A stretch of 64,000 bases of DNA from Candidatus Rifleibacterium amylolyticum (GTDB taxonomy: Bacteria > Muiribacteriota > Ozemobacteria > Ozemobacterales > Ozemobacteraceae): NCBI GenBank assembly GCA_009917695.1, contig JAACJG010000006.1:186001-250000 (forward strand), in the 5' to 3' direction. Below the pieces are notes generated by a model. It saw only the letters and a program-made list of their open reading frames with translations, did not search any database and was not told where the DNA came from. Both the position numbers and the translations under genes were made by a program. Position 1 is the first letter of the stretch. The number at the start of each line of letters is the position of its first letter. Below are positions 3,458 through 62,049 of the stretch, in pieces.

Positions 3458-3473
3458 GTATTTTACTGAGAAG

Positions 3474-4856: not shown

Positions 4857-4873
4857 TCGCTTCTCCTGTGTTT

Positions 4874-5620: not shown

Positions 5621-6414
5621 TGCAGATAAGCCACGCAGAAATTGTTGATACCGACGGTCAAAAAGTAGTTGACCGCAAGAATCAGCATGATCGAAACGAC
5701 AACCGCGCTGGTAGTGCTCTGACCGACGCCTTCGGCGCCACCCTCAGTTGTAAAGCCTTTGTAACAACCGATAACCCCGATAATACTGCCAAAAACGGTT
5801 GCCTTGATCAGACCACCCATCAGATCCTGAATCTGCAACATGTGCAGAATCGAGTCTTTGAAGGAAATCAGCGTCAGCCCGATCTGATTGACCGCAACGA
5901 TAGAACCGCCGATCATACCAACGACATTGGTAAAAATCGTCAGCATGAAAAGCATTATGGTGCAGCCCCAGAACCTTGGCACAACCAGATATTCGACCGG
6001 GTTGGTAGCCATGGTTTCGAGAGCGTCTATCTGCTCAGTAATCTTCATGGTGCCGAGTTCGGCGGCAATGGCACTGCCAACACGACCGGCGACAACGATA
6101 GAAGTCAGAATCGGAGCTAGTTCACGTGCCATTGAAAGCGCAACAACACCGCCAACATAACTCTGGGCGCCCATCTGAGCGAACTGATATCCGATCTGTA
6201 CGACCAGAACCGCTCCGGTTGAAACCCCGGTAATGGCTACCATCAGCAGCGAATCGACACCTATGCGCGACATCTGCTCGATCAGATTGCCAAAAGCAAA
6301 ACGACCGGTTCTGAGGTTGTGAAATGTCCAGTAAATCGTCTGCAGAAACAGGATGCTGACGTTACCGACTGCATCCAGCGTATCCTTAACCATCTTTTCC
6401 AGATAACTTATCAT
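5617..6414 (-). CDS. mlaE: MlaE-family ABC transporter permease
   Basis: A 265-residue inner-membrane permease with five to six hydrophobic segments. The family signature ELAPILTSIVVAGRVGSAIA followed by ELGTMKITEQIDAL is clear. It forms the membrane core of a phospholipid transporter with the ATPase encoded immediately downstream (4-nt overlap) and the MCE protein. The ATG has AGG nine nt upstream. It starts 14 nt after the stop of the S55 peptidase gene, so that peptidase may be part of the same transcript and envelope function. Confidence 0.93.
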   Translation of the reverse strand: MISYLEKMVKDTLDAVGNVSILFLQTIYWTFHNLRTGRFAFGNLIEQMSRIGVDSLLMVAITGVSTGAVLVVQIGYQFAQMGAQSYVGGVVALSMARELAPILTSIVVAGRVGSAIAAELGTMKITEQIDALETMATNPVEYLVVPRFWGCTIMLFMLTIFTNVVGMIGGSIVAVNQIGLTLISFKDSILHMLQIQDLMGGLIKATVFGSIIGVIGCYKGFTTEGGAEGVGQSTTSAVVVSIMLILAVNYFLTVGINNFCVAYLQ

Positions 6415-6428
6415 TTCATTCTGCCTGG

Positions 6429-8276: not shown

Positions 8277-8473
8277 TTGTACACCAGAACCCTTCAACCT
8301 TGCACATTCGTCAGCTACCTTCAGATAACCCGGCCATAGAGATGGTAATGACCAAAAAACAACATCAGCCAGAGTGTCAAAAAACACCTGGTCGGTAATG
8401 TATCGGCATGATACAGCCTAACATAAAGACGGGCAACAGCAATTTGTCAGAATATTGTTCTGAATGTAATTTT

Positions 8474-40399: not shown

Positions 40400-40466
40400 T
40401 GAAACACCTCATCCGACAAACTATGTACATATTATAATGATTTTCTCACGGCAAGGAAGGCCAAAA

Positions 40467-40547
40467 ATGAAGATCTGGCTCTGTCTGGTTTCGTCTATCT
40501 TTTCTGGCTCTTCACGACAGGATTTTTTGGGCAATGATATGGACTGA
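40467..40547 (+). CDS. Possible 26-residue peptide; region 40400-40711 otherwise without genes
   Basis: An ATG at 40467 with AAGGAAGG upstream opens a short frame MKIWLCLVSSIFSGSSRQDF... ending at TGA. The start looks like a short signal or hydrophobic peptide with one Cys, but nothing else supports it. The rest of the 312-nt gap holds only the promoter listed at 40661-40688. Confidence 0.2.
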   Translation: MKIWLCLVSSIFSGSSRQDFLGNDMD

Positions 40548-40660
40548 CGGATACAACACCAGTATAATGCAAACACAGATGCCACAACTTACTCTCAGAT
40601 AAAGCTATAAAACTAGTCCTCTGTCAAACTTGAATTGCATGTTCAAAGAATCTTGAACTC

Positions 40661-40688
40661 TTGTGTGACAAAGGTATAGAGATATTAT
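40661..40688 (+). promoter_or_regulatory. Candidate sigma-70 promoter for the GT41-FkbM gene
   Basis: TTGTGT (40661-40666), 16 nt, then TATTAT (40683-40688). Transcription would begin near 40695 and leave a 17-nt leader with GAGGAG before the ATG at 40712. A second possible -35, TTGAAC, lies at 40653. Confidence 0.45.
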
Positions 40689-40711
40689 CTGTCGATAATT
40701 GAGGAGAACCC

Positions 40712-43700
40712 ATGTTTTCACTACTGGATATGCTTGATAATTTTGTAGCAGATTCTCAGAAGCCCGCTAAAATAGGCATTCTTGATATAGGCGCTATGCT
40801 CATTGATGGTTCTCCTGCTGAATACCGGGTTCTTCTCGAGCGAGGTTACGCAAAAGTCACTGGATTTGAACCGGTTCTTGAAGAATGTCAGCGTCTTAAC
40901 AGTCTTAACCAGAGCGCTGACACCCATTTTCTGCCTTATTTCATCGGAGATGGAACCCGACAAAAATTTTATCACACGACCAGCCCGATGACCGGATCAC
41001 TTTATGAACCAAACACGCAACTGCTCAACATGTTCCAGAATCTTGGCGAACTCGTCGGAATCGTATCAGAAGAAATGGTCGATACCAGACGTCTCGATGA
41101 TATAGAAGAACTTAACTTTCCAGTCGATTACATCAAGATAGACGTTCAGGGCGCCGAATTGCAGGCTCTTAATGGAGCCAGAAACAGAGTCCTTAAAGAC
41201 GTTCTGGTCATCCAGACTGAGGCAGAATGGCTGCCTCTGTATAAAAATCAGCCACTGTTTTCAGAACTCGAGATGTTTCTCAGAAGTCAGGGCTTTGTAG
41301 TTCATCGAACCATGGGCTTTGGCACTCGTGCATTCAAACCCATCATAATGAATGGAAACATCAACCTCGGGCTACAGCATCTGTGGTCTGATGTTATTTT
41401 CGTCAGGGACTTTACTCGACTCGATCGTTTAAAGCCTTATCAACTGCTGAAAATGGCGATTATTCTGCACGAGGTGTATCATTCTTTCGACCTTGCCCTG
41501 ATTCTGTTGCAGGAATACGATCGCCACGAAAAAAGCGGCCTTGCGCAAGCCTACCTGGGCCGAATTACCAGCATTCCATCAGAAAATGAAGCAGCAGCTA
41601 AGACAACACCAACCGACATCCCGAAAAATTTTGTCGCCTTCTATACATCGGGAGTTGAAGCCTATCAAAGGGAAAACTTTACTGCTGCCCTCAAATATTT
41701 TGAACAGGCAAAGTCCGTCAAATCAGATTTTCCACCACTATGGCATAATCTTGGACTCACTCAGGCTCGACTGGGTAAATTTCAGGATGCAATGGCAAGC
41801 CTCGATAAAGCGCTAATCCTGGATCCGAGCTACCATGATGCCAGTGACCTGAAAAAGCTGATTGCTACTTTCAAAAAAACTCAGCAGCCACTGAAGCCTT
41901 CAAATCCCGCTAATGGCAGTGATAAATCGCATAAACTGCTGAAAGCAATCGAATTACAGCAGGAAAACAGAATCGCCGAAGCTGAGAAAGCATTTCTCGA
42001 AATCCTCGCAGAAAACCCGAACAGCGTTCCAGCTTTGTTTTCACTTGGAGGAATCGAGCATTCGCGCAAGAATCTGGCAGGGGCAATTGCCTGTTTCGAG
42101 CGCGCAATAGCAATCAAACCCGATTTTCCACCCTTATGGTTCAATCTTGGCACAACACTACAGGCACAAAAGCAACTCGACAGAGCTCTTACCAGCTATG
42201 ATCGGGCTCTCGAACTCGACCCTTCATATATTGAAGCTCTGATGAACCGGGGAACAGTTCTGGTCGATATGAAACGTCACAAAGACGCACTGCTCAATTA
42301 CGAAGACCTGCTCAAGCTCGACCCTGACAACGATAAGGCTTTATGTAATCGCGGCATTATTCTCACAGATTTTAAAATGAATGACCTCGCAATTCAGACT
42401 TTCGAAAGATTGCTTGCCATATCTCCCGATTATCAGTATGCCGCAGGACTGCTTTGTTTCGCCAAATTACACGCCTGTGACTGGAAAAATCTGGAGACGC
42501 TGCAACAGCATATTATCGATGGAGTTCGCGCAAAAAAGCGCGTCTGCAAGTCTATGGCATTTACAGCAATCGCACCTGAACCAAAAGATCATCTGCAGTG
42601 CGCCAGCATATTCGCCGAGCATTTCTGCCCGCCTCATCAACCATTGTGGCAGGGCGAAAAGTATCATCACGCGAAAATCAAAATCGCCTATGTCTCGCCT
42701 GATTTTAGAGAACATCCGGTCGGACACCTGATTGCCAGAGTCTTTGAGCAACATGATCGTAACAAATTCGAAACAATTGCCGTATCGCTGGGAATAGACG
42801 ACAACAGTCAGCAGCGCCAGAGAATGATCGCAGCCTTCGATGAATTTATCGATGTCCGCCAGATGACTTCGTATGACATTGCAAAAATGCTGCGCAAAAA
42901 AGAGGTTGATATACTGATCGATCTTGCCGGATTTACTGCTGACTCACGCCCAGACATTTTTGCCTGGCGACCTGCACCGGTTCAAATCAATTATCTGGGC
43001 TATTCCAGCACAATGGGAACCAGCTATCACGATTATATAATCGCCGACCGCCATATTATTCCTGAAGAATACCGCAATTGTTACAGCGAAAAAATTGTTT
43101 ATCTGCCCGACACTTATCTGCCAACAGATTCTACGCTACAAATTGCTGCCACAACTCCGCCCCGCCAGGTTTATGGCTTGCCAGACAAAGGCTTCGTTTT
43201 CTGTTCATTCAATCATGATTACAAGATCAATCCGTCAGTTTTCGATATCTGGATGCGCCTGTTAAAACAGGTACCCCAAAGCGTTCTCTGGCTGATGAAA
43301 CTCAACGAATCCGCTCAAAACAACCTGCTTGCTGAAGCAGCAGAAAGAGGAATAGAGCCTTCGCGCATTATCTTTGCCACAAGAGTTCCGCACATAGAAG
43401 ACCACCTGGCGCGCTACCGCATGGCCGACCTTTTCCTCGACACATTCCCCTGCAACGCTCATTCAACCGCCAGCGATGTCCTGCGTGCGGGTCTGCCGAT
43501 AGTAACCTGTCGCGGCAAAGCTTTTGCAGGCCGAGTCGCCTCTGGTCTGCTGGAGACAGCAGGAATGCCAGAACTCATAACCACAACACTGGCTGATTAC
43601 GAACAGCTTGCGCTCAAACTTGCCACCGACAAAAAAGCTCTCGACAAGATCAGAAAAAAACTCAAAAAGAACCTGCTGAATACGCCACTATTCGACACCA

Positions 43701-45313
43701 GTCTCTACTGCCATAATCTTGAAGCCGCCTTCACGGCAATGTGGAAGCGCTGTCAGCAGGGACTGGCACCTGATCATATTGTCGTTGCAGACAATGCAGA
43801 CAATTTCCGCAAGGCTGGTAAAAAATCAGGCAGGCACAGAGCAGAAAAGCAGAATGAATCATTCTGGCAGATCAATATAAGCGACGGAGTCAGGGTCTGT
43901 GTCCAGCCAAACATTGCACAGATGACCAGCTACATCCTGCTCGAACAGGAAGATTGGATGGAAGACGAAATCGCTTTTGTCAGACAATTTGTAACACCTG
44001 AGATGAATGTCTTCGATATAGGCGCAAATCATGGCGTTTATGCTCTCAGCATCGCGTCCAAACTCGATTCTGGTCATGTATGGGCATTTGAGCCTACCGT
44101 TGCGCCCGGAAGAATGCTTGCAAAAAGCATAGAACTGAATGGCTTCTCAAAAAAAGTAACCTGGGTACATGCCGGCCTGTCGAACCACAATGGCACAGCC
44201 GATATAGCAACATCACTGAACAGTGAACTCAACTCTCTACACGCCGCTCACACCTGTCGAGAAAAAATAAGCCTGACTACTATTGACGAATATATTAAAA
44301 GTAATTCCATAAATCAGCTGTTAAACTTCGTTAAACTCGATGCCGAGGGCGAAGAGATCAATATTCTACGCGGCGGCCAGGACTTCTTTAGCAGACAGTC
44401 ACCCCTCATAATGTTTGAACTCAAACATGGCAGCAAGGTTAACCATGGTTTGATACAGGCTCTGAATGAGCTTGGATACGACATTTACCGCCTGCTCGTC
44501 GATCTTAACATACTGGTTAAATATGATAACTCGTCTCAGGGCGATATTCTCAACCTGTTTGCCTGCAAATCTGATACGGCAGCAGAAATGAACTTACGTG
44601 GACTGCTTGCCCGAAAACAGGATGTGGCAAAAATAGAACCGCACAAATATTTTTCCAATAATGACTGGCAGGCTATCATCAAATGCTATCCTTATGGCAT
44701 GAAGTGCGCACAGCAATGGTTGTCCGTTCTTTCTGACGTTCCCGATGACTATCTTACCGCCCTTTCAGCAATCATCAAAGCTCATGACAAAACCTTACCA
44801 GCAGCGGCAAGAGTATCGCTGCTTCATACAGCCGAAACTCTGCTTGATAAATTCATTGAAAATCCTGATGGAGCCCATTACTCTCTCTGGCTTCTGAAAA
44901 TTCATCTGTTACATCTTCAGAATCGCCGCCTCGATTCCGTCAATCTCTGCAGACAGGTATCAGCAGCCTATAAAACTGCACCAATGCCAGGCTGGCCATT
45001 CATTCCTCCCAGGCAAAGTCTTTTCTGCGAAGAAATCGTTGATGAAGTTGGTAAATGGGTTATTGGCACGCTTGCAGAGTTCGTCGAATGTCGGCAAAGC
45101 TATTCATCATACTTTGTAGCAGACCCGATTGCCGGTCTTCAAAATATCATCAACAACGAAAATCACAGCATAGCCATTGAAAGAAGGCTGTTTCTTGCTT
45201 CCAGAAAAATCGGCAGATTTTCAATTGCTGATTCAGTCATAACACAGCTGAAGTCGCAAACCGGCCCAAACAAACATATCTGGAACCAGATACTGCAAAA
45301 CAGCAGCGTTTAG
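40712..45313 (+). CDS. FkbM methyltransferase - TPR - GT41 (O-GlcNAc transferase-like) - FkbM methyltransferase fusion
   Basis: A 1533-residue multidomain enzyme. Residues 20-230: FkbM-type SAM methyltransferase (motif ILDIGA at 23-28; FPVDYIKIDVQGAELQAL). Residues 305-595: at least six TPRs (for example SLGGIEHSRKNLAGAIACFE). Residues 650-1030: SPINDLY/O-GlcNAc-transferase catalytic region (AYVSPDFREHPVGHL, DILIDLAGFTADSRPDIFAW, LGYSSTMG, DTFPCNAHSTASDVLRAGLP). Residues 1095-1286: second FkbM domain (VFDIGANHGVYAL, FVKLDAEGEEINIL). Residues 1290-1533: helical, unknown. Such proteins place a sugar on Ser/Thr of proteins and methylate glycan hydroxyls. There is no signal peptide, so it acts in the cytoplasm. 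It converges with a Ser/Thr-rich repeat protein gene that is a possible acceptor. Confidence 0.9.
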   Translation: MFSLLDMLDNFVADSQKPAKIGILDIGAMLIDGSPAEYRVLLERGYAKVTGFEPVLEECQRLNSLNQSADTHFLPYFIGDGTRQKFYHTTSPMTGSLYEPNTQLLNMFQNLGELVGIVSEEMVDTRRLDDIEELNFPVDYIKIDVQGAELQALNGARNRVLKDVLVIQTEAEWLPLYKNQPLFSELEMFLRSQGFVVHRTMGFGTRAFKPIIMNGNINLGLQHLWSDVIFVRDFTRLDRLKPYQLLKMAIILHEVYHSFDLALILLQEYDRHEKSGLAQAYLGRITSIPSENEAAAKTTPTDIPKNFVAFYTSGVEAYQRENFTAALKYFEQAKSVKSDFPPLWHNLGLTQARLGKFQDAMASLDKALILDPSYHDASDLKKLIATFKKTQQPLKPSNPANGSDKSHKLLKAIELQQENRIAEAEKAFLEILAENPNSVPALFSLGGIEHSRKNLAGAIACFERAIAIKPDFPPLWFNLGTTLQAQKQLDRALTSYDRALELDPSYIEALMNRGTVLVDMKRHKDALLNYEDLLKLDPDNDKALCNRGIILTDFKMNDLAIQTFERLLAISPDYQYAAGLLCFAKLHACDWKNLETLQQHIIDGVRAKKRVCKSMAFTAIAPEPKDHLQCASIFAEHFCPPHQPLWQGEKYHHAKIKIAYVSPDFREHPVGHLIARVFEQHDRNKFETIAVSLGIDDNSQQRQRMIAAFDEFIDVRQMTSYDIAKMLRKKEVDILIDLAGFTADSRPDIFAWRPAPVQINYLGYSSTMGTSYHDYIIADRHIIPEEYRNCYSEKIVYLPDTYLPTDSTLQIAATTPPRQVYGLPDKGFVFCSFNHDYKINPSVFDIWMRLLKQVPQSVLWLMKLNESAQNNLLAEAAERGIEPSRIIFATRVPHIEDHLARYRMADLFLDTFPCNAHSTASDVLRAGLPIVTCRGKAFAGRVASGLLETAGMPELITTTLADYEQLALKLATDKKALDKIRKKLKKNLLNTPLFDTSLYCHNLEAAFTAMWKRCQQGLAPDHIVVADNADNFRKAGKKSGRHRAEKQNESFWQINISDGVRVCVQPNIAQMTSYILLEQEDWMEDEIAFVRQFVTPEMNVFDIGANHGVYALSIASKLDSGHVWAFEPTVAPGRMLAKSIELNGFSKKVTWVHAGLSNHNGTADIATSLNSELNSLHAAHTCREKISLTTIDEYIKSNSINQLLNFVKLDAEGEEINILRGGQDFFSRQSPLIMFELKHGSKVNHGLIQALNELGYDIYRLLVDLNILVKYDNSSQGDILNLFACKSDTAAEMNLRGLLARKQDVAKIEPHKYFSNNDWQAIIKCYPYGMKCAQQWLSVLSDVPDDYLTALSAIIKAHDKTLPAAARVSLLHTAETLLDKFIENPDGAHYSLWLLKIHLLHLQNRRLDSVNLCRQVSAAYKTAPMPGWPFIPPRQSLFCEEIVDEVGKWVIGTLAEFVECRQSYSSYFVADPIAGLQNIINNENHSIAIERRLFLASRKIGRFSIADSVITQLKSQTGPNKHIWNQILQNSSV

Positions 45314-45359
45314 AGGTCTACAGCTGCCTGGCAACCGCTGCCGACCCGTTCATAAAAAA

Positions 45360-45389
45360 CCTCAGACTGGCATAAAAACCAGCCTGAGG
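45360..45389. terminator. Bidirectional hairpin terminator between converging genes
   Basis: CCTCAGACTGG pairs with CCAGCCTGAGG (one A/C mismatch) around an 8-nt loop. TTTT follows within 8 nt on the plus strand, and a run of A precedes it for the other direction. Confidence 0.75.
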
Positions 45390-45418
45390 CAGTTTTAATT
45401 TCTGATAGTCAAGCCAGG

Positions 45419-46054
45419 TCAGGCAAAGTTGAGTGCCTGAATCTGATCTGTCGTCATAACAGCCACCTGATCGGGAGTCAGTGCACTGATTTGAGATGTA
45501 GTCAAAGCTGCTATCTGATCGGTCGACAACCCTGTGATCTGGGTCGTAGTAAGCTTCGATATCTGAACGTTGGTCAACGCCTGAATATCGTCAGATGTGA
45601 AGTTATCAATCTGCGCATTGCTAAGTGACGTTATCTGAGCAGTTGTGAGAGCCTTGATCTGAGTTGCAGACAGAGCATTTATCTGGTCCGATGTCAAAGC
45701 TGGAATCTGAGTAGTAGTGAAAGCCGCGATCTGTGTCGCAGTAAACTGCTGAATATCTACTGCTTCAATTTCAGCAACCTGATCAGTAGACAGAGCTTTG
45801 ATCTGAATTGCCGTCAGCGCTTTGGCCTGAGTCGTGGTCAGATCAGCGATCTGGTCGGTTGACAGGCTGGCGATCTGAGCTGTGGTCATCGCAGCAATCT
45901 GCGCCGAAGTCAGCTGTTCGAAGTCTTCGGTTTCGAACACGTCGAGCTGGGTCGGTGTGAAAGCCTTGATCTGCGCGGCGGTCAGCGCCTTAACCTGGCT
46001 GGTTGTCCAGACCGGCACCTGATCACTGGTCAGATTGGAAATCTGGATGGTCAA
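45419..46054 (-). pseudogene. Octapeptide-repeat protein, C-terminal part, out of frame with its N-terminal part
   Basis: An open frame of 211 residues built of 8-residue repeats (consensus L-[ST]-T-x-Q-[IV]-x-A). It continues the upstream repeat protein, but in another phase. Inserting one G on the plus strand after 46076 joins the frames and keeps the 8-residue register exactly (QMQA-LTTSQIPA-SLTIQISN-LTSDQ). It ends with IQALNFA and no anchor. It could be a separately translated gene only if the ATG at 46054 is used; that ATG has no clear ribosome site and falls mid-repeat, so a broken 3' half is more likely. Confidence 0.75.
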
Positions 46055-47520
46055 TGACGCTGGAATCTGAGAAGTATCAAAGCCTGCATCTGATCTGTCG
46101 TCAAGCTGGCGATCTGTGTCGTGCTCAGCTTGGACAGCTGAGTGTTGGTCAGCGCCTGCATGTCATCAGATGCAAAGTTCGAAAGCTGGTCAGTATCCAT
46201 TGCCGCCAGCTGGGCTGTCGTCAGAGCCCTGATCTGAGTCGTCGACAGAGCGTTGATCTGATCAGATGTCAGTGCCGGTATCTGAGTGCTGGTGAAAGCT
46301 GCGATCTGTGCGGCCGAGAACTGCGCCAGATCAGCAGGTTCGATCTCAGCAACCTGATCGGTAGACAGGGCCTTGATCTGAAGTGCAGTCAGGCCCTTGG
46401 CCTGAGTCGTGGTCAGGTCAGCGATCTGGTCGGTTGACAGGCTGGCGATCTGAGCTGTGGTCATCGCAGCAATCTGCGCCGAAGTCAGCTGTTCGAAGTC
46501 TTCGGTTTCGAACACGTCGAGCTGGGTCGGTGTGAAAGCCTTGATCTGCGCGGCGGTCAGCGCCTTAACCTGACTGGTTGTCAGACCGGCCACCTGATCG
46601 CTGGTCAGATTGGAAATCTGACTGGTAGTAAGCGCCGGGATCTGTGCTGAGGTCAAAGCCTGCATCTGATCTGTCGTCAAGCTGGCGATCTGTGTCGTGC
46701 TCAGCTTGGACAGCTGAGTGTTGGTCAGCGCCTGCATGTCATCAGATGCAAAGTTCGAAAGCTGGTCAGTATCCATCGCCGCCAGCTGGGCTGTCGTCAG
46801 AGCCCTTATCTGAGTCGTCGACAGAGCGTTGATCTGATCAGATGTCAGTGCCGGTATCTGAGTGGACGTAAAAGCTGCAAGCTGTGTAGCCGAAAATTTG
46901 GCAAGATCTCCCGGCTCTATTTTGGAAACCTGATCGGTATCAAGAGCTTTGATCTGAGTGGCAGTGAGTCCTTTAACCTGGTCGGTAGAAAGGTTTTCGA
47001 TCTGAGTATCAGTCAATGCCTTGATCTGATTGGTTGTCAGGGCTGAAATCTGCGCTGAAGTCAAAGCTGCAAATTGACTGGTATCAAGACTTATAATCTG
47101 GTCATTGGTGAGCTGGGCAATCTGCTGATTAGTCATCGCCTGAAACTGTTCCGGCGAAAAAACAGCGGTCAGCGTGGCTGAAAGGTAGGTTAAATCCTGC
47201 GCATCTATCGATTTGATCTGAGTAGTTGATATTGCAGCAAAGTCATCGGTACCGAATGTGGCAAGCTGTTCACTTGTCAGGGCTTTCATCTGTAATGGTG
47301 TGAGAGCCTGAACCTGTGTATTCAGCAGGCCCTGATTGTTGTAAAGCTGCAAAGCCTGAATTTGGCCACTGCTGAGTATGACAAGATCACGTGTCTCTAT
47401 GGCGTCAATCTGGTCGGAATTCAAAGCCGCAATCTGTGTCGGCGTCATCGCTTTAAAATCTGCAGTACCAAGATCCTTGATCTGCTGAGTGGTCAGGGCT
47501 GCAATCTGGGTTGTAGACAT
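45425..47520 (-). repeat. 24-bp tandem repeats with a 576-bp higher-order repeat
   Basis: About 87 coding repeats of 24 bp. Above this a unit of 24 octads (192 residues, 576 bp) recurs: segments near 45866-46040 and 46441-46620 are almost identical at a distance of 575 bp (576 minus the lost base), and a third, less similar unit lies toward the N-terminus. The near-identity points to recent duplication or gene conversion. Confidence 0.85.
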
Positions 47521-47538
47521 TCCGATGACTATCGACAT
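46051..47538 (-). CDS. Ser/Thr-rich octapeptide-repeat protein (N-terminal 495 residues, frameshifted end)
   Basis: After six residues (MSIVIG) the whole protein is a run of 8-residue repeats with consensus L-[ST]-T-x-Q-[IV]-x-A, such as LTTDQIAA, LSTTQIRA and ALTSDQIN. Occasional Asp-rich octads (IEPADLAQ, VFETEDFE, NFASDDMQ) recur in fixed order. There is no signal peptide, Cys or membrane helix. The last eight residues (ILLRFQRH) are out-of-frame sequence. GAGGAG lies before the ATG. Repeats of this kind may form a solenoid and offer regularly spaced Ser/Thr; they could be glycosylated by the GT41-type enzyme encoded opposite. Function unknown. The intact protein would have about 706 residues. 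Confidence 0.82.
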   Translation of the reverse strand: MSIVIGMSTTQIAALTTQQIKDLGTADFKAMTPTQIAALNSDQIDAIETRDLVILSSGQIQALQLYNNQGLLNTQVQALTPLQMKALTSEQLATFGTDDFAAISTTQIKSIDAQDLTYLSATLTAVFSPEQFQAMTNQQIAQLTNDQIISLDTSQFAALTSAQISALTTNQIKALTDTQIENLSTDQVKGLTATQIKALDTDQVSKIEPGDLAKFSATQLAAFTSTQIPALTSDQINALSTTQIRALTTAQLAAMDTDQLSNFASDDMQALTNTQLSKLSTTQIASLTTDQMQALTSAQIPALTTSQISNLTSDQVAGLTTSQVKALTAAQIKAFTPTQLDVFETEDFEQLTSAQIAAMTTAQIASLSTDQIADLTTTQAKGLTALQIKALSTDQVAEIEPADLAQFSAAQIAAFTSTQIPALTSDQINALSTTQIRALTTAQLAAMDTDQLSNFASDDMQALTNTQLSKLSTTQIASLTTDQMQALILLRFQRH

Positions 47539-47610
47539 AGGTGCTCCTCAAAAATTCATATTTAACAAGATTCTCTCTCTGGCAGAAGGCACATCAAGAT
47601 AAAAAATCCT

Positions 47611-47638
47611 ATCATATCTGTCGGCTTCAGTACAGCAA
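47611..47638 (-). promoter_or_regulatory. Candidate promoter for the octapeptide-repeat gene
   Basis: On the minus strand TTGCTG (47638-47633), 16 nt, then TATGAT (47616-47611), five of six to the -10 consensus. It would leave an untranslated leader of about 65 nt before the ATG at 47538. Confidence 0.4.
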
Positions 47639-47766
47639 ATTTATATAGAGAAGAGACATTAGCAAGGGAAAATTTCCTTAAGCGCACTCGCCCTTATAAA
47701 GGTGCTCTGAGCGAGGCATCTCAGCAAGACAATGCTCAATGTTCACTAATTATTGTTATGCACAGA

Positions 47767-54011: not shown

Positions 54012-55949
54012 TTACGTCAACAGATGACCAAATTCCTTTTCAAGGTCATCAAAAGCATCGACAAGCAGCTTTAAAGAAAGCCGGCACACGTCGCCAATCG
54101 TCGGGAACCAGCGTTTCATAAGCTTCACAGCTTGAAGCTTGCAACGTTTCTTATCCTGGCACAGCGTTGGCAGTTCATTGAAATCCATTTCGAATTTGAC
54201 AATGATCATCTGCACTATATGCATGAGATAGAGATTAAAGTATTTGCCAAAGGTGATGATGTCACTCCGGGCGCGGGTCATCTCAGCATGAATCTTGTCG
54301 AGGTCCTTTTCGGGAAATCGCTCGAGAAAATCTTCGATCGCCTTGTAACCCTCTTCTTCCAGCCGCCGCTCAAAATCTTCAACAAGCGCAGTACCTTTGT
54401 CACAGTATTCGATAACGCCTTCAACTTCTTTGCGCGTATCGATCATCGTCTGCCTGAAGTTGCGCCATTCTCTGCGAATATCGCTTTCCTGCGGGTATTT
54501 TAGATGCTGCTTGATAATCGCATGGGCATCAAAAGTCTTCTGGCAGTATTTTTCGATAGCCTCGCGCAATGTCATCAACACAGTTCCTTCGATGTAGGCG
54601 CCGCCCTCGGTAGCATTGATACAGGTTCCTCTATAGGTTGCCAGATCGGTTACAAAGCCGCGGCGGAACATATCATAAATCTGGTTGGTGAAGACAAAAT
54701 CCTGGTAATTTCCCTTGACCTTGATAAGATCCTTTTCCTTGAGTTTAAGATTGGTTACTGCCGGGGCATCGTCCGCATGCGTTTTTTCGGCACTCTTGAA
54801 CGAGCAGTCCTGACCTACCAGAATTATCGGATCGCAACCCATCGCCTCGAGCACTTTGAAAGCCATATTCGAACATGACGGGCCTACCAGCAATGTTCCC
54901 TTCGGCATATTCAACCAGTCGAAATGGGCAAAAGCTCGATATATCATGAAGGTCGGCCCTGACCAGGCATCATACGCTTCTTTGCGAATAACTGGCGTCG
55001 CCGCCAGCCAGATTTTCTCTTTATAATCTTCGGGCAGCTCGCCAAACATTGTGGCGACATGCATGATGCGCTCGAGGCTGACTGCTGCATGCGGCGTTAT
55101 GTCATGCTTATGCAAGATCCTGAGAGCAGAGTCCGCGGCTATTACCACCGCACTGCCGAGAGCATTTTTCAGCTCATCTATGTTCTTATCGAGCGATGGC
55201 CCGGTCGAAACAATTATGCCCGGCCGACCCTTGAAAGCCCCGTAAAGGTCTTTAACGCCAGGGTTTCTGATGATTGTCGCCAGATTCTTCATGATGTTCT
55301 CAACACCGATCATCGAGTCCTGAGGGCAGTTTCCATAATTGAAGATGATTGCATGTGCCGCTTCACGGAAGCACTTGAGCATGTGCCGGTGATAATCGCC
55401 ATGCACCTTGTCGAGCACCGGATGATCGAATATCTGCAACGTCTTAAGAAACAACTGCAAGGTGACGCCGGCCTGCTTGACCATATCGTGCAATACGGCA
55501 TAGCCCTCTTCTTCAGGCACTCCGATTACCCACCTGATCTTTTCTGAATTCAGAAGGTCGCTCATATCGACGTTGGTCATCGCCGCCCGAAAAGCCTCGA
55601 CATCCTTCTCGATGACGACAATAAAAAGATTGCTATCCTTAAGCTCTTCAAGACAGGCCTGCACGTGATAACCAAGCCCCAGACCAAGAACGACAAGAAT
55701 CTTGGGGTTGACCAGCTTTTTACCAAGAACCTGCTGTTTAGCCTCGCGACGTGGGTCATATCGGCTGTGAATCTGATACACTTTATCATCCTGCTTGATT
55801 GCAAGAGTCATATCGCCATTCTTCGCCGGCTCCACAATGTATTCAAAATCCGAGCCACGGCTCAGTTCGAGCGCCTTTTCGAGCACGGGCATGCGCTTTC
55901 GCAGAATCTTCATGTTGCGTGAATAAAAATTAGACTTCATGTTAGGCAC
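54012..55949 (-). CDS. DUF115/Maf-like (motility accessory factor) protein, probable nonulosonate transferase
   Basis: A 645-residue protein of the MptE-like/DUF115 family. The central domain shows IIVSTGPSLDKNIDELK, VIAADSALRILHKHDI and LVGPSCSNMAFKVLEAMGCD with LVGQDCSF, all typical of Maf flagellin glycosyltransferases. An N-terminal part (residues 55-200) has a nucleotide-fold-like strand ILVVLGLGLGYHV. The GTG at 55949 has AAGGAT close before it; an ATG three codons later is the alternative. Maf proteins put pseudaminic or legionaminic acid on Ser/Thr of flagellin. It is the last gene after the pse pathway, which supports that role. No flagellin gene is in the window. Confidence 0.82.
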   Translation of the reverse strand: MPNMKSNFYSRNMKILRKRMPVLEKALELSRGSDFEYIVEPAKNGDMTLAIKQDDKVYQIHSRYDPRREAKQQVLGKKLVNPKILVVLGLGLGYHVQACLEELKDSNLFIVVIEKDVEAFRAAMTNVDMSDLLNSEKIRWVIGVPEEEGYAVLHDMVKQAGVTLQLFLKTLQIFDHPVLDKVHGDYHRHMLKCFREAAHAIIFNYGNCPQDSMIGVENIMKNLATIIRNPGVKDLYGAFKGRPGIIVSTGPSLDKNIDELKNALGSAVVIAADSALRILHKHDITPHAAVSLERIMHVATMFGELPEDYKEKIWLAATPVIRKEAYDAWSGPTFMIYRAFAHFDWLNMPKGTLLVGPSCSNMAFKVLEAMGCDPIILVGQDCSFKSAEKTHADDAPAVTNLKLKEKDLIKVKGNYQDFVFTNQIYDMFRRGFVTDLATYRGTCINATEGGAYIEGTVLMTLREAIEKYCQKTFDAHAIIKQHLKYPQESDIRREWRNFRQTMIDTRKEVEGVIEYCDKGTALVEDFERRLEEEGYKAIEDFLERFPEKDLDKIHAEMTRARSDIITFGKYFNLYLMHIVQMIIVKFEMDFNELPTLCQDKKRCKLQAVKLMKRWFPTIGDVCRLSLKLLVDAFDDLEKEFGHLLT

Positions 55950-56010
55950 ATATCCTTACTGCTTAATTAGTTTCAATCATATATCATATCGGCTACCGAC
56001 TGAAGTTTCA

Positions 56011-56799
56011 TCAGTTCTGCTGAAGATATAGAAGGGAAGCGGCTATCTGAGCCACAGCCAGCAGCGGGTTGTAGAATTCCACCGGCAGCTTGAGATCGGC
56101 CGGGAAACGAAGAGCGAGATCAAGCAGAGCGCTTTCGCCAATATTCAGATGAAGGAGCACACTTGAATAAAGCTCTTCATCACTCACGGCGGTACCCATA
56201 AAAATCTTGACGCGGGCTGTTGCATCGCCAGCCAAAGCCAGTCCGGTTGCCGACAGCATTCGCTCGATATCTTCCAGCCATGTCGGCTCAGCCAGAAACT
56301 GCAATAACACTGGCTGATGCACAACAGCCAGTGGCAGCAACCAGCAGATAAAATTGGCGCCATGACTGCGACCATGGCCAGCATTGAAAAAACCATTTCT
56401 CACAAATATTTTCTGCGATGGCAGATTGTCAGTCAAAGTCTCTGCCACCAGCAGAGTTGCGCAGTCGCGAATCTCTTCGCTCTGACAGGCAAGCCGCAAA
56501 ATGCTGCTGCCATAACCCTTGCCAGTTTTGCCAGGCGCAGCCGCGAGCGAAATACGATAACATCCGGGCAGTTCTGCCGGATCGAAACGAATCTGCGCAA
56601 CTGCTTCACCGGCGTCTTCGAGAATAAAGCCATATCGATTTGAATCTGCGAGAAACCCGAAAAACCAGCGCTTATGATCATCGTAAGGAAACATGCGCTG
56701 ATCGATACACCAGCGCATGACATCAGGATCTACCCGCCAGTCGTAGATTCTGCGGCAGTCGCTTTCCTGCCATCGTCGCAGCTTCAAATCATTTCCCAT
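56011..56799 (-). CDS. pseH: PseH-like GNAT acetyltransferase with C-terminal extension
   Basis: A 262-residue protein. The first 150 residues are a GNAT domain (WRVDPDVMRWCIDQRMFPYD near the start; GKGYGSSILRLA is the CoA loop; DNLPSQKIFVRNGF), as in PseH, which acetylates the 4-amino sugar in pseudaminic acid synthesis. The last 110 residues (after FICWLLPLAVV) have no domain I recognise and are mostly helical and hydrophobic in places; PseH enzymes are normally about 160-200 residues. The start overlaps pseI by 16 nt. The pathway context strongly supports the assignment. Confidence 0.82.
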   Translation of the reverse strand: MGNDLKLRRWQESDCRRIYDWRVDPDVMRWCIDQRMFPYDDHKRWFFGFLADSNRYGFILEDAGEAVAQIRFDPAELPGCYRISLAAAPGKTGKGYGSSILRLACQSEEIRDCATLLVAETLTDNLPSQKIFVRNGFFNAGHGRSHGANFICWLLPLAVVHQPVLLQFLAEPTWLEDIERMLSATGLALAGDATARVKIFMGTAVSDEELYSSVLLHLNIGESALLDLALRFPADLKLPVEFYNPLLAVAQIAASLLYLQQN

Positions 56800-57827
56800 G
56801 TCAGAATATCATCCTCTTCGATGTCACAACGGGCTGCACGGCCGATGACGATTTCCATATGTCTTACCGGAATCCCGAAACCGGGCCGCTTTACCGCCAG
56901 CATATCTTCTGTAATGACTGTTCCGGACGGAATATTTACCGCTGCTACCAGACTGCGTCGGGCAATACGATACAATTCGTTTTCAGCTGCCGTGTGCTGT
57001 TTGAGCGGCGAACCAAGAAGTTTTTCGGTCTGCCTGATCGCTTCGACCATTGCCTTGAGCTCGCCAGGTTCGAGTGAGAAAGGGTGATCCGGGCCTTCCT
57101 GCTGTCGCGACAGAGTAAAATGTTTTTCTATGATACAGGCCCCACGCGCTACGGCTGCCACATCTGTAACATGGCCCATAGTATGATCAGAAAAGCCGAC
57201 TGGCAGTCCAAAAGCCTGACGCATGGTATCCATTGCCCGCAGGTTGATGTCTTCGAATTTCGGCGGATAAGCAATGGCACAGTGCAAAAGCGCAACCTCA
57301 CTGCTGCCGCCTGATCGTATGGCAGCAAGAGCGATCTCGATGTCTTCAAGGCTGGCCATGCCGGTTGACAGAATAATCGGCTTGCCGGTAGCAGAAATCT
57401 TTTTGAGCATTGGCAGATGAGTAATTTCGAAGCTCGCCACCTTGTAAGCCTCTACACCAGCAGCCTCAAGCTCATCGACAGCATTGAGATCAAAAGGAGT
57501 CGAAAGAAAAATGATGCCTTTCTGCTGACAGTATGCCATGAGATCCGGAGTCCACTGCCGTGGAATCTCGATGCGCTTGATAATGTTCCAAAGTGATTCG
57601 CCATCTTTAACCAGTTTTTTGTCTTTGAGATAGCTTGCCATAGGCGTTTTCTTCGAATAGATTGCCTCGGCCGAAAAAATCTGGAACTTCACAGCATCGG
57701 CACCGGCTTCAACTGCAACATCTATGAGTTTTTTCGCATTTTCGAAGTCGCGGTTATGATTACTGCCGGCTTCGGCTATGATAAAACAACTTTGTTCATG
57801 CCCTATTTCACGCTGACCAATTTTCAA
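56784..57827 (-). CDS. pseI: Pseudaminic acid synthase
   Basis: A 347-residue NeuB-family enzyme that condenses phosphoenolpyruvate with 2,4-diacetamido-2,4,6-trideoxy-altrose. The barrel shows IAEAGSNHNRDFENAKKLID, ADAVKFQIFSAE, LSTGMASLEDIE, GFSDHTMG and IEKHFTLSRQQEGPDHPFSL. The C-terminal SAF (antifreeze-like) domain spans about residues 285-347. The DHPFSL form is frequent in PseI. It overlaps pseG by 20 nt and pseH by 16 nt. Confidence 0.93.
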   Translation of the reverse strand: MKIGQREIGHEQSCFIIAEAGSNHNRDFENAKKLIDVAVEAGADAVKFQIFSAEAIYSKKTPMASYLKDKKLVKDGESLWNIIKRIEIPRQWTPDLMAYCQQKGIIFLSTPFDLNAVDELEAAGVEAYKVASFEITHLPMLKKISATGKPIILSTGMASLEDIEIALAAIRSGGSSEVALLHCAIAYPPKFEDINLRAMDTMRQAFGLPVGFSDHTMGHVTDVAAVARGACIIEKHFTLSRQQEGPDHPFSLEPGELKAMVEAIRQTEKLLGSPLKQHTAAENELYRIARRSLVAAVNIPSGTVITEDMLAVKRPGFGIPVRHMEIVIGRAARCDIEEDDILTWEMI

Positions 57828-59109
57828 AGTCTTTTCTCCAGTCTGATGGCAGCAGATCGACCTGCTGCCATGTCAGTTTGTCCAACATATCGGCACAACG
57901 CGCAGCACCACCGCCATCGATAAGCGCGCGCTGCCGCCGCATCATTTCCTGCCACTGTTCCGGCATATTGCGAAACTCTTTCAGTATCCCGCTGACAAAC
58001 TCGTTGCCTGCACCAGCCTGATTATCGACAAGAAAACTTGTATTTTCACGCCGGATGACATCACTGGCACTCTGGTTCTGAAGCTCGCGCCGGCGAACTT
58101 CACTGTCAGGCTCAACGCCGCTCTTGAGCAAGCCGATACCACGTCCAAACAGCTCTGACTGCAATCCCTGATTGATCTGTTCAGCAAAATCGACGAGAAA
58201 GCTGGTTGCCTGCTGCCTGATCACGACCGAGGTCTGTCTCTGATTATCGACCCAGACCAGACAAAGGTTCGGCACGCCAAGACAGTATGTTTCCCATAGC
58301 GTCGTACCACCTCCGGTTATGGCAAAGGCACTGCTGGCAAGCAGTTCAGGAAAACGGTGGCTGTCGGTATTGAGAAAACGTCTTGTCGAGTCGTGACTGA
58401 TCCAGTCGTTGATTGCATCTAACGGACAGTTAGCCGAAACCGACACGCAGATTCTATTGGCGAGGCCATCGGGCACTGCCGACAAAACTCTCATCATTGG
58501 CTCAACCACATCACCGCCACCCAGAGTTATCATTATCAGCCCTTCATCGCTGTATGGCCGATCGCGCAAAGCAACGACTTCAGGCCTGATCAACGTATAT
58601 TCTTCTCCACACATGATAGAGGGGATCTTCTGGCGCTCGTAGGGCTCGCTTGAAAACAGCGGATTTGGGTTCAACACAGCCTGAGCTGGCGTATCGCGGC
58701 TGGCAAGATCATCGATAACCATAATCGGCAGCCTTTGTCGGCCAAATCGCTGCAAAAAAGCATAGTCTTCGCGATTGTAAAAGTAAGTGTCGATGACCAG
58801 GCAATCGATCCGCAGCTCGAATTCACGCGTCAACATGTCAAGAAGAGCTCGCGAATCTTCGGCTGCGGTCTTGAACGGCCCGAATTCGATCAGGTTGATG
58901 ATCTGATTAACTCGTCGCTTATCATTACCAGAAAGTTCTTTAGCCATGCCGGAGCCAACAAAAAACACGACCCATTTGCGCTTGACAAGTTCCAGTGCGA
59001 GCGTGCGGCAACGCATAAAATGTCCCATGCCAATACCAGGCCCGGCATCAACTCTAAATACTGCAGTTTTGCTGGGAGCAAGTCCTCTGCGATTCAATCC
59101 TATCGGCAT
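57808..59109 (-). CDS. pseG: UDP-2,4-diacetamido-2,4,6-trideoxy-altrose hydrolase
   Basis: A 433-residue GT-B-like enzyme that releases UDP from the sugar before condensation by PseI. The catalytic His is in GIGMGHFMRCRTLALELV, and MITLGGGDV, ITGGGTTLWETYCLGVP form the nucleotide pocket. The ATG at 59109 overlaps the preceding gene by 10 nt; a GTG at 59130 would add seven residues. It is longer than Campylobacter PseG (about 275 residues): an extra section follows the second domain, from about residue 300. Operon position between the cytidylyltransferase and pseI supports the call. Confidence 0.88.
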   Translation of the reverse strand: MPIGLNRRGLAPSKTAVFRVDAGPGIGMGHFMRCRTLALELVKRKWVVFFVGSGMAKELSGNDKRRVNQIINLIEFGPFKTAAEDSRALLDMLTREFELRIDCLVIDTYFYNREDYAFLQRFGRQRLPIMVIDDLASRDTPAQAVLNPNPLFSSEPYERQKIPSIMCGEEYTLIRPEVVALRDRPYSDEGLIMITLGGGDVVEPMMRVLSAVPDGLANRICVSVSANCPLDAINDWISHDSTRRFLNTDSHRFPELLASSAFAITGGGTTLWETYCLGVPNLCLVWVDNQRQTSVVIRQQATSFLVDFAEQINQGLQSELFGRGIGLLKSGVEPDSEVRRRELQNQSASDVIRRENTSFLVDNQAGAGNEFVSGILKEFRNMPEQWQEMMRRQRALIDGGGAARCADMLDKLTWQQVDLLPSDWRKDFENWSA

Positions 59110-59873
59110 AACAGACTGCTGCCCCCACACAAACCTGCTGGCAGATTAAATTGCACGCCAGCTGAATTGATTGCCAGTATTTCGGGGTGTTCATGCAAAT
59201 ACGCCAGGATTTCATAAATCGAGCAGAGTGGCTTGTGAATGACCAGTCCGTCAAAAATCTTCTGCAACGCCTGATAGTCTTCAGGTCGGTCGAGAGTCAG
59301 CCTGACATCGGGCATTTCAAGAGCGAACGACATGCTGGCAGACTTGAATTCGCCCGGGCGCTCTCTTATATAAAGAGTCACATGTTCGCGATGAGTTTGT
59401 AACTCTGCAATAGAATCAATATGTCGCAAAACCTCTGCTCTGACGACTTCTATATCGAAGCCCTTTGGAAAATCGGGTGGCCCGACATTCGAAGTATAGT
59501 CATTCTGCATGCTTGTGTGCATATAAAGAAGCGAATCAAGCAACCCCGGATCGACCAATGGACAGTCGGCGGTAATTCGCACCATATTCACACATGGAAA
59601 AGCGTTGAGCGCCTTGATATAGCGCGAAAGGACATCTTCGGTGCTTCCTCTGACACATGGCACATCATTAGCGACACACCAATGATAAAGACTGTCATCG
59701 ACAGTTGCGTCAGGCAGAGCCACAACCACGCGATCAACCGTAAGCGCGGCCCGGCAGCGCCGAACCACATGCTCGATTACCGGCCGACCAGCTAAATCCA
59801 TCAGCGTTTTACCTGGCAACCGGGTCGAACTCATACGCCCCTGAATTACGATCTGATTCTTTACGCTGTTCAA
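59100..59873 (-). CDS. pseF: SpsF-type cytidylyltransferase (PseF role)
   Basis: A 257-residue nucleotidyltransferase that should activate pseudaminic acid as the CMP-sugar. The N-terminal motif IVIQGRMSSTRLPGKTLMDL belongs to the SpsF branch, not the usual PseF/NeuA form; other marks are VRITADCPLVDP and HREHVTLYIRE. The start is a TTG at 59873 that shares bases with the pseC stop (TTGA), with GAGGT nine nt upstream; longer frames into pseC have no support. The function follows from the complete pathway around it. Confidence 0.83.
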   Translation of the reverse strand: MNSVKNQIVIQGRMSSTRLPGKTLMDLAGRPVIEHVVRRCRAALTVDRVVVALPDATVDDSLYHWCVANDVPCVRGSTEDVLSRYIKALNAFPCVNMVRITADCPLVDPGLLDSLLYMHTSMQNDYTSNVGPPDFPKGFDIEVVRAEVLRHIDSIAELQTHREHVTLYIRERPGEFKSASMSFALEMPDVRLTLDRPEDYQALQKIFDGLVIHKPLCSIYEILAYLHEHPEILAINSAGVQFNLPAGLCGGSSLLCR

Positions 59874-61072
59874 GCCAGAGCTACCTCGAGAACTGAACAG
59901 ATTCGCGCGACGTCGGCATCGGTCAGCTGCGGAAAACATGGCAGCGACAAGGCTTTGCGATAATAAACCAGAGCGCTCGGATAGTCCGCCGAATCCGACG
60001 CTGCCGCGTAAAACGGCATGAGCGGCACCGGAATATAATGCACCTGTGTGCCAATACCGGCTTCTCTGAGATGATTCATCACCGCTGCCCGGCTTTTACC
60101 GGCAGAGTCAAAATCGATAAGAGCCACTGCCAGATGATACGCATGCCAGACACCATCAGCCACCTTTGGGAAAGCAATATGCGGGTGTCTGCCAAGACGG
60201 GCTTCGTAGGCCGCGACAATTTCACGACGACGCACTATGCCCGCAGCCAGTCGATGCAGTTGCGATTCGCCAAGAGCTGCCTGAATGTCGGTCAGGCGAT
60301 AATTGAAACCAAGCTGCTGCATCTCGTAATACCATGGATTTACACTGCCATCAGCCGCTAACGCTTCAGATTTGTTTTCGAATTCAGCCGGATCACGCGT
60401 GATACCATGCGTGCGTAACAGCCTAAGCCTGTGAGCCAGTCTGTCGTCATGCGTCAGAATCATACCGCCTTCGCCGGTAGTAATATGCTTGACCGGGTGA
60501 AAACTCAAAACTGTCATATCAGGCGAAGGCCATTCTCCGACTTTCCAGCGAATGCCCTGGCTGTCTTCCCAGGTTGCACCGATTGAATGGCAGGCATCCT
60601 GTATCCAGACAAAGCCAAACTCTTTTTTTAACTGCGCAAAGGCCTGCATATCGCATGGGTGCCCGGCAAAATCTACAGTCACCACGACTTTTACCGGCCT
60701 GCCTTCGGATTGAGCCTTTTCAAGAATGCGGCGGCATGAGAGCGGCGATATAGTAAGAGTCTCCGGGTCGATGTCGGCGAATCTGACCTCAGCCCCGACA
60801 TAGCGCGCACAGTTGGCGCTGGCAACAAAGGTTATCGCAGAAGTTACCGCCATATCGCCAGCCTGCAGATCAGCAGCCAGACAGGCAAGATGCAGGGCGG
60901 CCGTGCCATTACTGCAGGCAATGGCATGACTGGCGCCAGCTTCGAGGCATACCGCCTTTTCAAAGCTCTCAATAGCCGGACCCTGAGTCAGATAATCAGA
61001 TTTTAATACAGCAACTACCGCTTCGATATCTTCCCGGCTGACATCCTGGCGCCCGTAAGGAATGAACTTCAT
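59870..61072 (-). CDS. pseC: UDP-4-amino-4,6-dideoxy-altrose transaminase
   Basis: A 400-residue PLP aminotransferase of the DegT/DnrJ family. The PLP lysine is in LSFHPVKHITTGEGG, and other marks are ACSNGTAALHLA, WIQDACHSIGATW and FNYRLTDIQAALG. This FHPVKHITTGEGG form is diagnostic of PseC, which aminates the 4-keto product of PseB. It overlaps pseB by 4 nt (ATGA) and pseF by 4 nt (TTGA). Confidence 0.94.
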   Translation of the reverse strand: MKFIPYGRQDVSREDIEAVVAVLKSDYLTQGPAIESFEKAVCLEAGASHAIACSNGTAALHLACLAADLQAGDMAVTSAITFVASANCARYVGAEVRFADIDPETLTISPLSCRRILEKAQSEGRPVKVVVTVDFAGHPCDMQAFAQLKKEFGFVWIQDACHSIGATWEDSQGIRWKVGEWPSPDMTVLSFHPVKHITTGEGGMILTHDDRLAHRLRLLRTHGITRDPAEFENKSEALAADGSVNPWYYEMQQLGFNYRLTDIQAALGESQLHRLAAGIVRRREIVAAYEARLGRHPHIAFPKVADGVWHAYHLAVALIDFDSAGKSRAAVMNHLREAGIGTQVHYIPVPLMPFYAAASDSADYPSALVYYRKALSLPCFPQLTDADVARICSVLEVALA

Positions 61073-62049
61073 TCAACCACGCCCTTCTGCTTCAACAGAT
61101 TTTTGAGGCCTTCGACATCCAGCCACTGGCTGTTGCTGTCGCTCGAGTATTCGAAGCCCTCAGGCACTGCAGTGGCACCTTCCGGCAAAACGACTTTCCA
61201 GAAAGGGAAATCTGGCAACTTGATATAGCGGTCGCCATATTCATAAAGATTGCGCGAATCATCACGGGAAATCATCATTTCGTGCAGTTTCTCGCCTGGG
61301 CGCACACCAATTATGCTATAGCGGCAACCTGGCGCAATCGCCTGTGCCAGATCAGTTAGACGCATACTGGGAATCTTGGGAATATAAAGCTCACCGCCAG
61401 TCATAATGTTGAACGAATCGACGACAAACTTGACTGCCTGCGGCAGCGTGATCCAGAATCTGGTCATGCGTTCATCCGTTATAGGTAGTTCGCCGGTTTC
61501 TGCAAGTTTCTGAAACAATGGCACAACGCTGCCACGACTGCCGATAACATTGCCATAGCGAACCACTGCGAATCTCGTCACCATTTTACCAGAATAGGCA
61601 TTGGCAGCGATGAAAAGCTTATCAGAACACAGTTTGGTGGCACCATAAAGATTGACCGGATTACAGGCCTTATCGGTGCTCAAGGCCACCACCTTCTGCA
61701 CGCCAGCTTCCAACGAGGCGTTGATAAGATTCTGCGCACCCATGATGTTGGTCTGTACCGCTTCAAACGGGTTGTATTCAGAGGCCGGAACCTGCTTTAT
61801 GGCGGCCGCGTGAATTACCAGATCGACTCCGCAAAGAGCACGGTAAAGCCTTTTTTCATCGCGAACGTCGCCTAGAAAGAATCTCAGGCGATCTGAAGCG
61901 AACATCTGTGACATCTGATACTGCTTGAATTCATCACGCGAATAAACGATTATCTTGCGCGGATCAAATTCTTCCAGAGCTCTTTTGACAAAAGCCTTGC
62001 CAAAAGAACCGGTGCCGCCGGTGACGAGAATGCTTTTGCCGTTCAGCAT
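61069..62049 (-). CDS. pseB: UDP-GlcNAc 4,6-dehydratase (inverting)
   Basis: A 326-residue short-chain dehydrogenase that begins pseudaminic acid synthesis. NADP motif VTGGTGSFGKAF, the region VIHAAAIKQVPASEYNP, and the catalytic set with STDKACNPVNLYGATK are as in FlaA1/PseB. The short length and cytosolic character distinguish it from the long membrane-bound LegB/PglF dehydratases. It is the first pathway gene; it lies 39 nt after the nucleotidyltransferase gene upstream. Confidence 0.95.
   Translation of the reverse strand: MLNGKSILVTGGTGSFGKAFVKRALEEFDPRKIIVYSRDEFKQYQMSQMFASDRLRFFLGDVRDEKRLYRALCGVDLVIHAAAIKQVPASEYNPFEAVQTNIMGAQNLINASLEAGVQKVVALSTDKACNPVNLYGATKLCSDKLFIAANAYSGKMVTRFAVVRYGNVIGSRGSVVPLFQKLAETGELPITDERMTRFWITLPQAVKFVVDSFNIMTGGELYIPKIPSMRLTDLAQAIAPGCRYSIIGVRPGEKLHEMMISRDDSRNLYEYGDRYIKLPDFPFWKVVLPEGATAVPEGFEYSSDSNSQWLDVEGLKNLLKQKGVVE

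Follow-up and report, generated by a model that had tools for sequence, protein, structure and literature searches.

Here, we ask whether two neighboring genes of Candidatus Rifleibacterium amylolyticum, which encode a multidomain GT41-FkbM protein and a protein built of Ser/Thr-rich octapeptides (ALTTAQ repeats), are an enzyme and its acceptor. Both genes lie in the stretch of 64,000 nucleotides analyzed here (the window), which is part of a 5.39 Mb assembly (Table 1). The initial annotation had proposed the pairing from adjacency; co-occurrence in relatives, adjacency, an empty site in a sister species, and the GT41 clades strongly support it. Because the two families adjoin in several phyla and vanish together at one site, we suggest that the two genes very probably stand in an enzyme-substrate relation with the repeat protein as the putative acceptor. 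The fuller reading, in which the GT41-FkbM protein is a dedicated cytoplasmic O-glycosyltransferase for the adjacent ALTTAQ protein, with methyl capping and later export, we consider likely.

Table 1. Features of the GT41-FkbM/ALTTAQ locus and its surroundings in the window
Feature	Position	Strand	Reading or basis
Left flanking gene, 363 aa	39308..40399	-	Predicted exported protein, conserved in genus, no Pfam match
Two-gene cassette GT41-FkbM + ALTTAQ	40400..47752	.	Both genes missing together from this site in sister species G004
FkbM-TPR-GT41-FkbM multidomain protein, 1533 aa	40712..45313	+	Putative protein O-glycosyltransferase that includes methyltransferases of its own
N-terminal FkbM methyltransferase domain (PF05050)	40817..41299	+	Intact motifs DIGA, FEP, YIKIDVQGAEL
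TPR region, residues ~318-576	41663..42439	+	Several TPR models match; presumed to bind the acceptor, as in FlmG and OGT
GT41 catalytic region, both lobes (PF13844)	42665..43720	+	Equivalents of OGT H498, K842, H901, D925 kept
C-terminal FkbM methyltransferase domain (PF05050)	44015..44482	+	Pfam match
ALTTAQ repeat protein, C-terminal 211 aa, other frame, end TTDQIQALNFA	45419..46054	-	Pfam, ORF list
Frameshift zone, small-indel cluster	46000..46085	-	Comparison with near-identical intact upstream copy
ALTTAQ repeat protein, N-terminal 495 aa with conserved head MSIVIGMSTTQIAAL	46051..47538	-	Putative acceptor
Right flanking gene, 687 aa	47753..49816	+	Polyferredoxin-like membrane and 4Fe-4S modules, C-terminal TPRs; in 11/24 family genomes
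Nonulosonic (pseudaminic-type) acid cluster	54012..62049	-	PseB and PseC over NCBIfam cut-offs, PseG just under; also NeuB/PseI, cytidylyltransferase, acetyltransferase-like gene, Maf/PseD-like flagellin-modification gene

The 1533-residue protein matched PF13844 with an E value of 8e-95 (319 bits); both GT41 lobes are present, and the TPRs lie N-terminal to the GT41 core as in the OGT/SPINDLY type. In a PDB search, the closest solved structures were human O-GlcNAc transferase (OGT; E 1e-117) and Arabidopsis SPINDLY (E 2e-83). The PDB alignment revealed that the catalytic and nucleotide-binding positions are retained (FNHDYKIN/FNQLYKID, HSTASD/HTTGMD, FREHP/FGNHP, and IEDH/KEEH), the key positions of human OGT being those that we take to be numbered H498, K842, H901, and D925. 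By comparison, the N-glucosyltransferase model NF049992 gave only 38 bits against a cut-off of 1000, which places the enzyme outside the HMW1C-like proteins; the match to OGT/SPINDLY is far better than that to this model. Two stretches matched PF05050 and have motifs of the SAM-binding type, and TIGR01444 scored 120 bits (cut-off, 37.7). Pfam thus recovered the same succession of FkbM, TPR, OGT-like, and FkbM domains that the initial annotation had read from the 1533 residues, with the catalytic residues kept. This GT41 is the sole one that a profile search found in its genome, and GT41 flanked by FkbM on both sides was seen only in the window's genus. Judged by its sequence, the protein is a GT41 of the OGT/SPINDLY type with an unusual domain layout and a putative transfer to Ser/Thr.

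The neighboring octapeptide array comprises 706 aa (~88 units) over two ORFs and matched PF20080 (ALTTAQ_rpt) with an E value of 6e-109 (356 bits; 19 tandem stretches above the gathering score); TRF did not detect the array at the DNA level. It had been described as a single gene of ~87 Ser/Thr octapeptides; the repeat stands, but 45419-47538 is divided into two ORFs, and the repeat is already a Pfam family. The frame breaks near 46,080. Because the indel cluster sits in a stretch that is otherwise almost identical to an intact copy ~570 bp upstream, the break could be an assembly or sequencing error, and we consider this and a real frameshift equally likely. As described earlier, Cys was absent from both ORFs and a hydrophobic segment from the 495-aa ORF (maximum 19-residue Kyte-Doolittle mean, 0.85); by eye, no obvious N-terminal export signal was seen in the ALTTAQ proteins examined. 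Chance low complexity was rejected as the origin of the repeat because the repeat, its head sequence, and the GT41 pairing recur across phyla; the tails are conserved within lineages. The array is the only PF20080 locus found in its genome. We know of no function for PF20080, and a literature search for ALTTAQ, HeliScrew, and the repeat strings, which covered subscription journals thinly, returned nothing in this context, the text matches to PF20080 being unrelated. In three arrays (L102, L092, and L165), we noticed EF-hand-like calcium-binding loops near the C-terminus, which are weak and under the Pfam cut-offs.

Using Fisher tests in three families, in which related genomes are non-independent samples, we found that ALTTAQ and GT41 co-occur. 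In the window's Riflebacteria family (24 genomes), GT41 was present in 8 of the 8 genomes with ALTTAQ and in 1 of the 16 without (p 1.2e-5). The corresponding fractions were 3/3 and 9/117 in Pseudomonadaceae (120 genomes; p 8e-4), where all three ALTTAQ genomes have the GT41 adjacent, and 13/17 and 19/104 in Rhizobiaceae (121 genomes; p 4e-6), where 12 of the 13 genomes with both carry them on one contig, mostly a few kb apart. Among the further ALTTAQ genomes from a scan of named genomes, 41 of 42 had a GT41. ALTTAQ without a detected GT41 was found in four Rhizobiaceae genomes and one Rhodoferax MAG; therefore, the repeat protein can exist unmodified or otherwise modified.

The named-genome scan yielded 79 ALTTAQ loci, mostly in Pseudomonadota, many of which are truncated, either at a contig end or by arrays that reach 5,000 aa. 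GT41 is their commonest conserved neighbor: it lies within 31 of the 79 loci, the flanks of which are often incomplete, with 30 within 2 kb and 23 directly downstream on the same strand. The spacing is usually 20–800 bp. For many loci without a local GT41, a second ALTTAQ array adjoins a GT41 elsewhere in the genome, and by our count, the pair is 6 kb apart or less in at least 25 of 42 genomes. The relative orientation varies between co-directional, convergent, and divergent; the pair is convergent in the window's genus and in G012, and co-directional in the other Riflebacteria genera and most Pseudomonadota. Because gene order varies, the ALTTAQ-GT41 linkage outlives rearrangement. The window's pair, being convergent, is not an operon, and this counts against the pairing.

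In the sister species (G004; locus L207), the homologues of the two flanking genes lie ~350 bp apart in the same order, with neither GT41 nor ALTTAQ between them, and the next genes are conserved too; a GT41-FkbM homologue is present on another, truncated contig. In G002, another member of the genus, the pair occupies the same site as in the window, and the array is interrupted by contig breaks. In the sister genome G001, the two flanks are also conserved, on two contigs, while GT41 and ALTTAQ are on different contigs and other genes follow the GT41. As read from these gene orders, GT41-FkbM and ALTTAQ are gained or lost jointly at this site. Co-occurrence and adjacency in relatives had been chosen beforehand as the test on which the pairing could fail, and the pairing came through it in three families, over the 79 loci, and at the empty site.

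One alternative is that the GT41-FkbM protein is an FlmG-like flagellin glycosyltransferase and that ALTTAQ is merely a neighbor in a motility/glycosylation region. FlmG, a TPR-glycosyltransferase, modifies the flagellin of Caulobacter (PMC7591256), and GT41s without ALTTAQ often directly adjoin flagellin genes in Rhizobiaceae and Pseudomonadaceae. Moreover, the window contains the nonulosonate and Maf-like cluster at 54–62 kb, flagellins are encoded on the same contig ~35 kb beyond the ALTTAQ gene, and ALTTAQ has flagellar genes as neighbors in Duganella, Rhodoferax, Accumulibacter, and Riflebacteria G010. However, flagellin is present in 24 of the 24 genomes of the window's family and GT41 in nine, which include every ALTTAQ genome. 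Because all 24 genomes have flagellin, a role in building flagella does not by itself account for the linked GT41. In addition, a Maf/PseD-like flagellin-modification gene is already present in the window, and what is missing from the empty site is precisely GT41 and ALTTAQ.

The GT41 tree bears on the same question. Among its 96 rows (quick method, long branches, SH-aLRT support only, and a few ALTTAQ-labelled rows several kb from the array), the ALTTAQ-linked GT41s fall mainly in three clades, in which they account for 35/36, 11/12, and 12/14 rows; the last clade contains the window. The flagellin-linked GT41s are mostly in other clades, one of them being the nearest outgroup of the window's clade, and Pseudomonas G082 has two GT41s, one beside flagellin and the other beside ALTTAQ. 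We did not assign the window enzyme to the FlmG type, since GT41 (9/24) does not track flagellin (24/24) and the enzyme stands apart from most flagellin-linked GT41s. Altogether, we consider it unlikely that flagellin is the acceptor. Two proteins picked up by a home-made GT41 model, both located across the array, were set aside: the L127 protein (2783-5845) has TPRs but lacks PF13844, and the L158 protein (5662-8958) pairs with it in the tree, on a very long branch. Tandem GT41 genes with neither flagellin nor ALTTAQ beside them occur in L187, L189, and L198 (Pseudomonadaceae/Rhizobiaceae). In six Oxalobacteraceae (Duganella and relatives; L095, L100, L111, L114, L133, and L139), ALTTAQ arrays of 2,600-3,200 aa are flanked by fliR and a flgL-like gene; for these arrays inside a flagellar cluster, a flagellum-linked role is possible.

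If the ALTTAQ protein is the acceptor, the fold of the repeat may indicate where sugars are attached. The AlphaFold2 model (495-aa ORF plus 19 relatives; pLDDT 93, pTM 0.78) has one helix of 5-6 residues per octapeptide. All 56 of the 56 predicted helices begin at repeat position 3, which is mostly Thr/Ser and forms the first helical residue, with position 2, also mostly Thr/Ser, as the N-cap. HeliScrew4 (PDB 9zem), which has repeats like LTPEQIAA and appears to be a designed protein, matched in sequence over 110 residues (E 8e-16); it differs in having Pro at the position where natural ALTTAQ repeats mostly carry Thr. Because the design has Pro there, a Thr at position 3 is not structurally required. 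Based on the model, Ser/Thr at position 2 would have a structural reason as the helix N-cap, and no such reason would call for the Thr at position 3. A Foldseek search of the PDB with the model returned generic helical repeats; the match to mesothelin (probability 1.0, E 1e-4, TM 0.46 at best) was set aside as structural similarity only.

In Rhizobiaceae, the median Ser/Thr fraction at position 3 is 0.90 in arrays beside a GT41 (n=19), 0.66 in arrays away from the GT41 in GT41-carrying genomes (n=10), and 0.48 in genomes without GT41 (n=4), while Ser/Thr at positions 2 and 4 does not differ with GT41 adjacency. Position 3 was chosen after seeing seven Rhizobiaceae arrays; in a retest that left out these and L093, which was seen in the same run, the contrast was 0.91 vs 0.66 (p 0.008). 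In pairs of arrays within one genome (seven Rhizobiaceae and seven Oxalobacteraceae), the GT41-adjacent array had the higher fraction in 11 of 14 (p 0.005), a trend that was clearer in Rhizobiaceae. Pooling the arrays from other families, however, reverses the direction (0.84 beside GT41 vs 0.95, p 0.03); nearly every genome in this pool carries a GT41 anyway. With related arrays being non-independent, we regard these data as suggestive that position 3 is the main glycosylation site. The regular acceptor array envisaged by the initial annotation thus agrees with the predicted helical repeat and the trend in Rhizobiaceae but not with the pooled comparison.

Several linked GT41s are fused to further domains, i.e., Methyltransf_23 and GT2 (Duganella), a GT4-like domain (L118), DUF5672 (G020), and Methyltransf_11 (G017). 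That of Oryzomonas (L110, 10735-13830) has a weak NodZ-like (fucosyltransferase) C-terminal match and is followed by GT8-like and FkbM genes. A small SAM methyltransferase gene follows the linked GT41 in L102, L128, and L164, and a UDP-galactopyranose mutase (GLF) gene does so in six rhizobial loci. Because such fused or following sugar-modifying domains recur, methylating or extending the attached sugar would be a recurring theme of linked GT41s. Glycosylation and then methylation of the repeats is a plausible, if putative, chemistry; that the sugar is GlcNAc (+203) is a guess.

In five loci (L092, L096, L099, L117, and L120), type I secretion genes either adjoin the array or are separated from it by a single gene, and in Pseudomonas alcaligenes (L142), a full ABC/HlyD/TolC set, all over the NCBIfam cut-offs, follows ALTTAQ-GT41. 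No type I secretion genes were seen beside the window's ALTTAQ gene, and models of C-terminal type I signals gave no match to the ALTTAQ proteins of three relatives. We suggest that the ALTTAQ protein probably leaves the cell after modification in the cytoplasm. Accordingly, the earlier placement of both proteins in the cytoplasm probably holds while the enzyme acts, but the type I secretion genes flanking ALTTAQ in several relatives speak against it as a final location.

A second alternative is that the enzyme acts on another acceptor, i.e., a glycan or other proteins, and that it is bound, scaffolded, or regulated by the ALTTAQ protein without modifying it. A helical screw of such length could associate with long TPR superhelices, some of the fused domains act on glycans, and four Rhizobiaceae genomes have ALTTAQ without GT41. 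However, the GT41 members of known function act on proteins, Ser/Thr at position 3 follows GT41 adjacency in Rhizobiaceae, and the type I secretion neighbors suggest that the protein leaves the cell, which would ill suit a cytoplasmic scaffold; we consider this reading very unlikely. Finally, it is highly improbable that the two genes are linked only by a shared genomic island with no functional relation: although both genes are either there or missing at one site, and islands often carry genes of this kind for surface proteins and sugars, the two families are neighbors in no fewer than three GT41 clades and in several phyla, with varied order and different flanks, and hitchhikers would separate over such distances.

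Returning to the GT41-FkbM protein as a dedicated O-glycosyltransferase for the ALTTAQ protein, we propose that the TPR region would grip the helical-screw array, while the GT41 domain would move sugar from a nucleotide-sugar donor onto Ser/Thr at regular positions. The best candidate site is the third residue of L-[ST]-T-x-Q-[IV]-x-A, the predicted first residue of each small helix. The fused FkbM domains may then O-methylate the attached sugar, and the heavily modified protein would probably leave the cell to serve at the surface or in the extracellular matrix, in relatives via type I secretion. More tentatively, we speculate that this could be a widespread, undescribed O-glycosylation system, in which a TPR-bound helical screw has a glycan started at nearly every eight-residue turn and extended or methylated by the enzyme's own fused domains, giving secreted rods with up to hundreds of regular glycans; we regard this broader picture as possible rather than probable.

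Acceptors are known for few bacterial GT41 (OGT/SPINDLY-like) enzymes; the pairing supplies a candidate substrate for them, together with a candidate function for the uncharacterized repeat family PF20080. With many like sites spaced regularly along a rigid scaffold, TPR-guided processive glycosylation would become directly measurable. The recurrent GT41 fusions to second glycosyltransferases or methyltransferases suggest that, in common soil and water bacteria, single proteins serve as glycan assembly lines.

By analogy, the system in the window may work like FlmG with flagellin or HMW1C with HMW1. In Caulobacter, the TPR part of FlmG binds the flagellin acceptor, and the donor is pseudaminic acid (PMC7591256). 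FlmG resembles the window enzyme as a cytoplasmic TPR-glycosyltransferase whose acceptor is exported later, as we infer for ALTTAQ; it differs in its flagellin acceptor, its pseudaminic acid donor, and the lack of fused methyltransferases, and we do not assume that FlmG of Caulobacter is a PF13844 protein. HMW1C and ApHMW1C are GT41 N-glycosyltransferases, and in Haemophilus influenzae, the HMW1C gene lies beside that of the giant exported HMW1 adhesin (PMC3012730). As in the window, where the acceptor role is putative, a GT41 gene here adjoins that of a large acceptor with many sites; unlike the window enzyme, HMW1C makes N-linkages and is without TPRs, and its acceptor leaves by two-partner secretion. 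OGT and SPINDLY share with the window enzyme the TPRs, the GT41 core, and the key residues; they differ in serving eukaryotic signaling with broad substrates, and have neither FkbM domains nor an adjacent repeat acceptor gene. In the serine-rich repeat adhesins, a dedicated cytoplasmic O-glycosyltransferase, GtfA/GtfB, has its gene next to that of a long Ser/Thr repeat protein destined for export; these adhesins differ in being Gram-positive, in using accessory Sec export and unrelated enzyme families, and in having repeats that are thought to be disordered and not helical.
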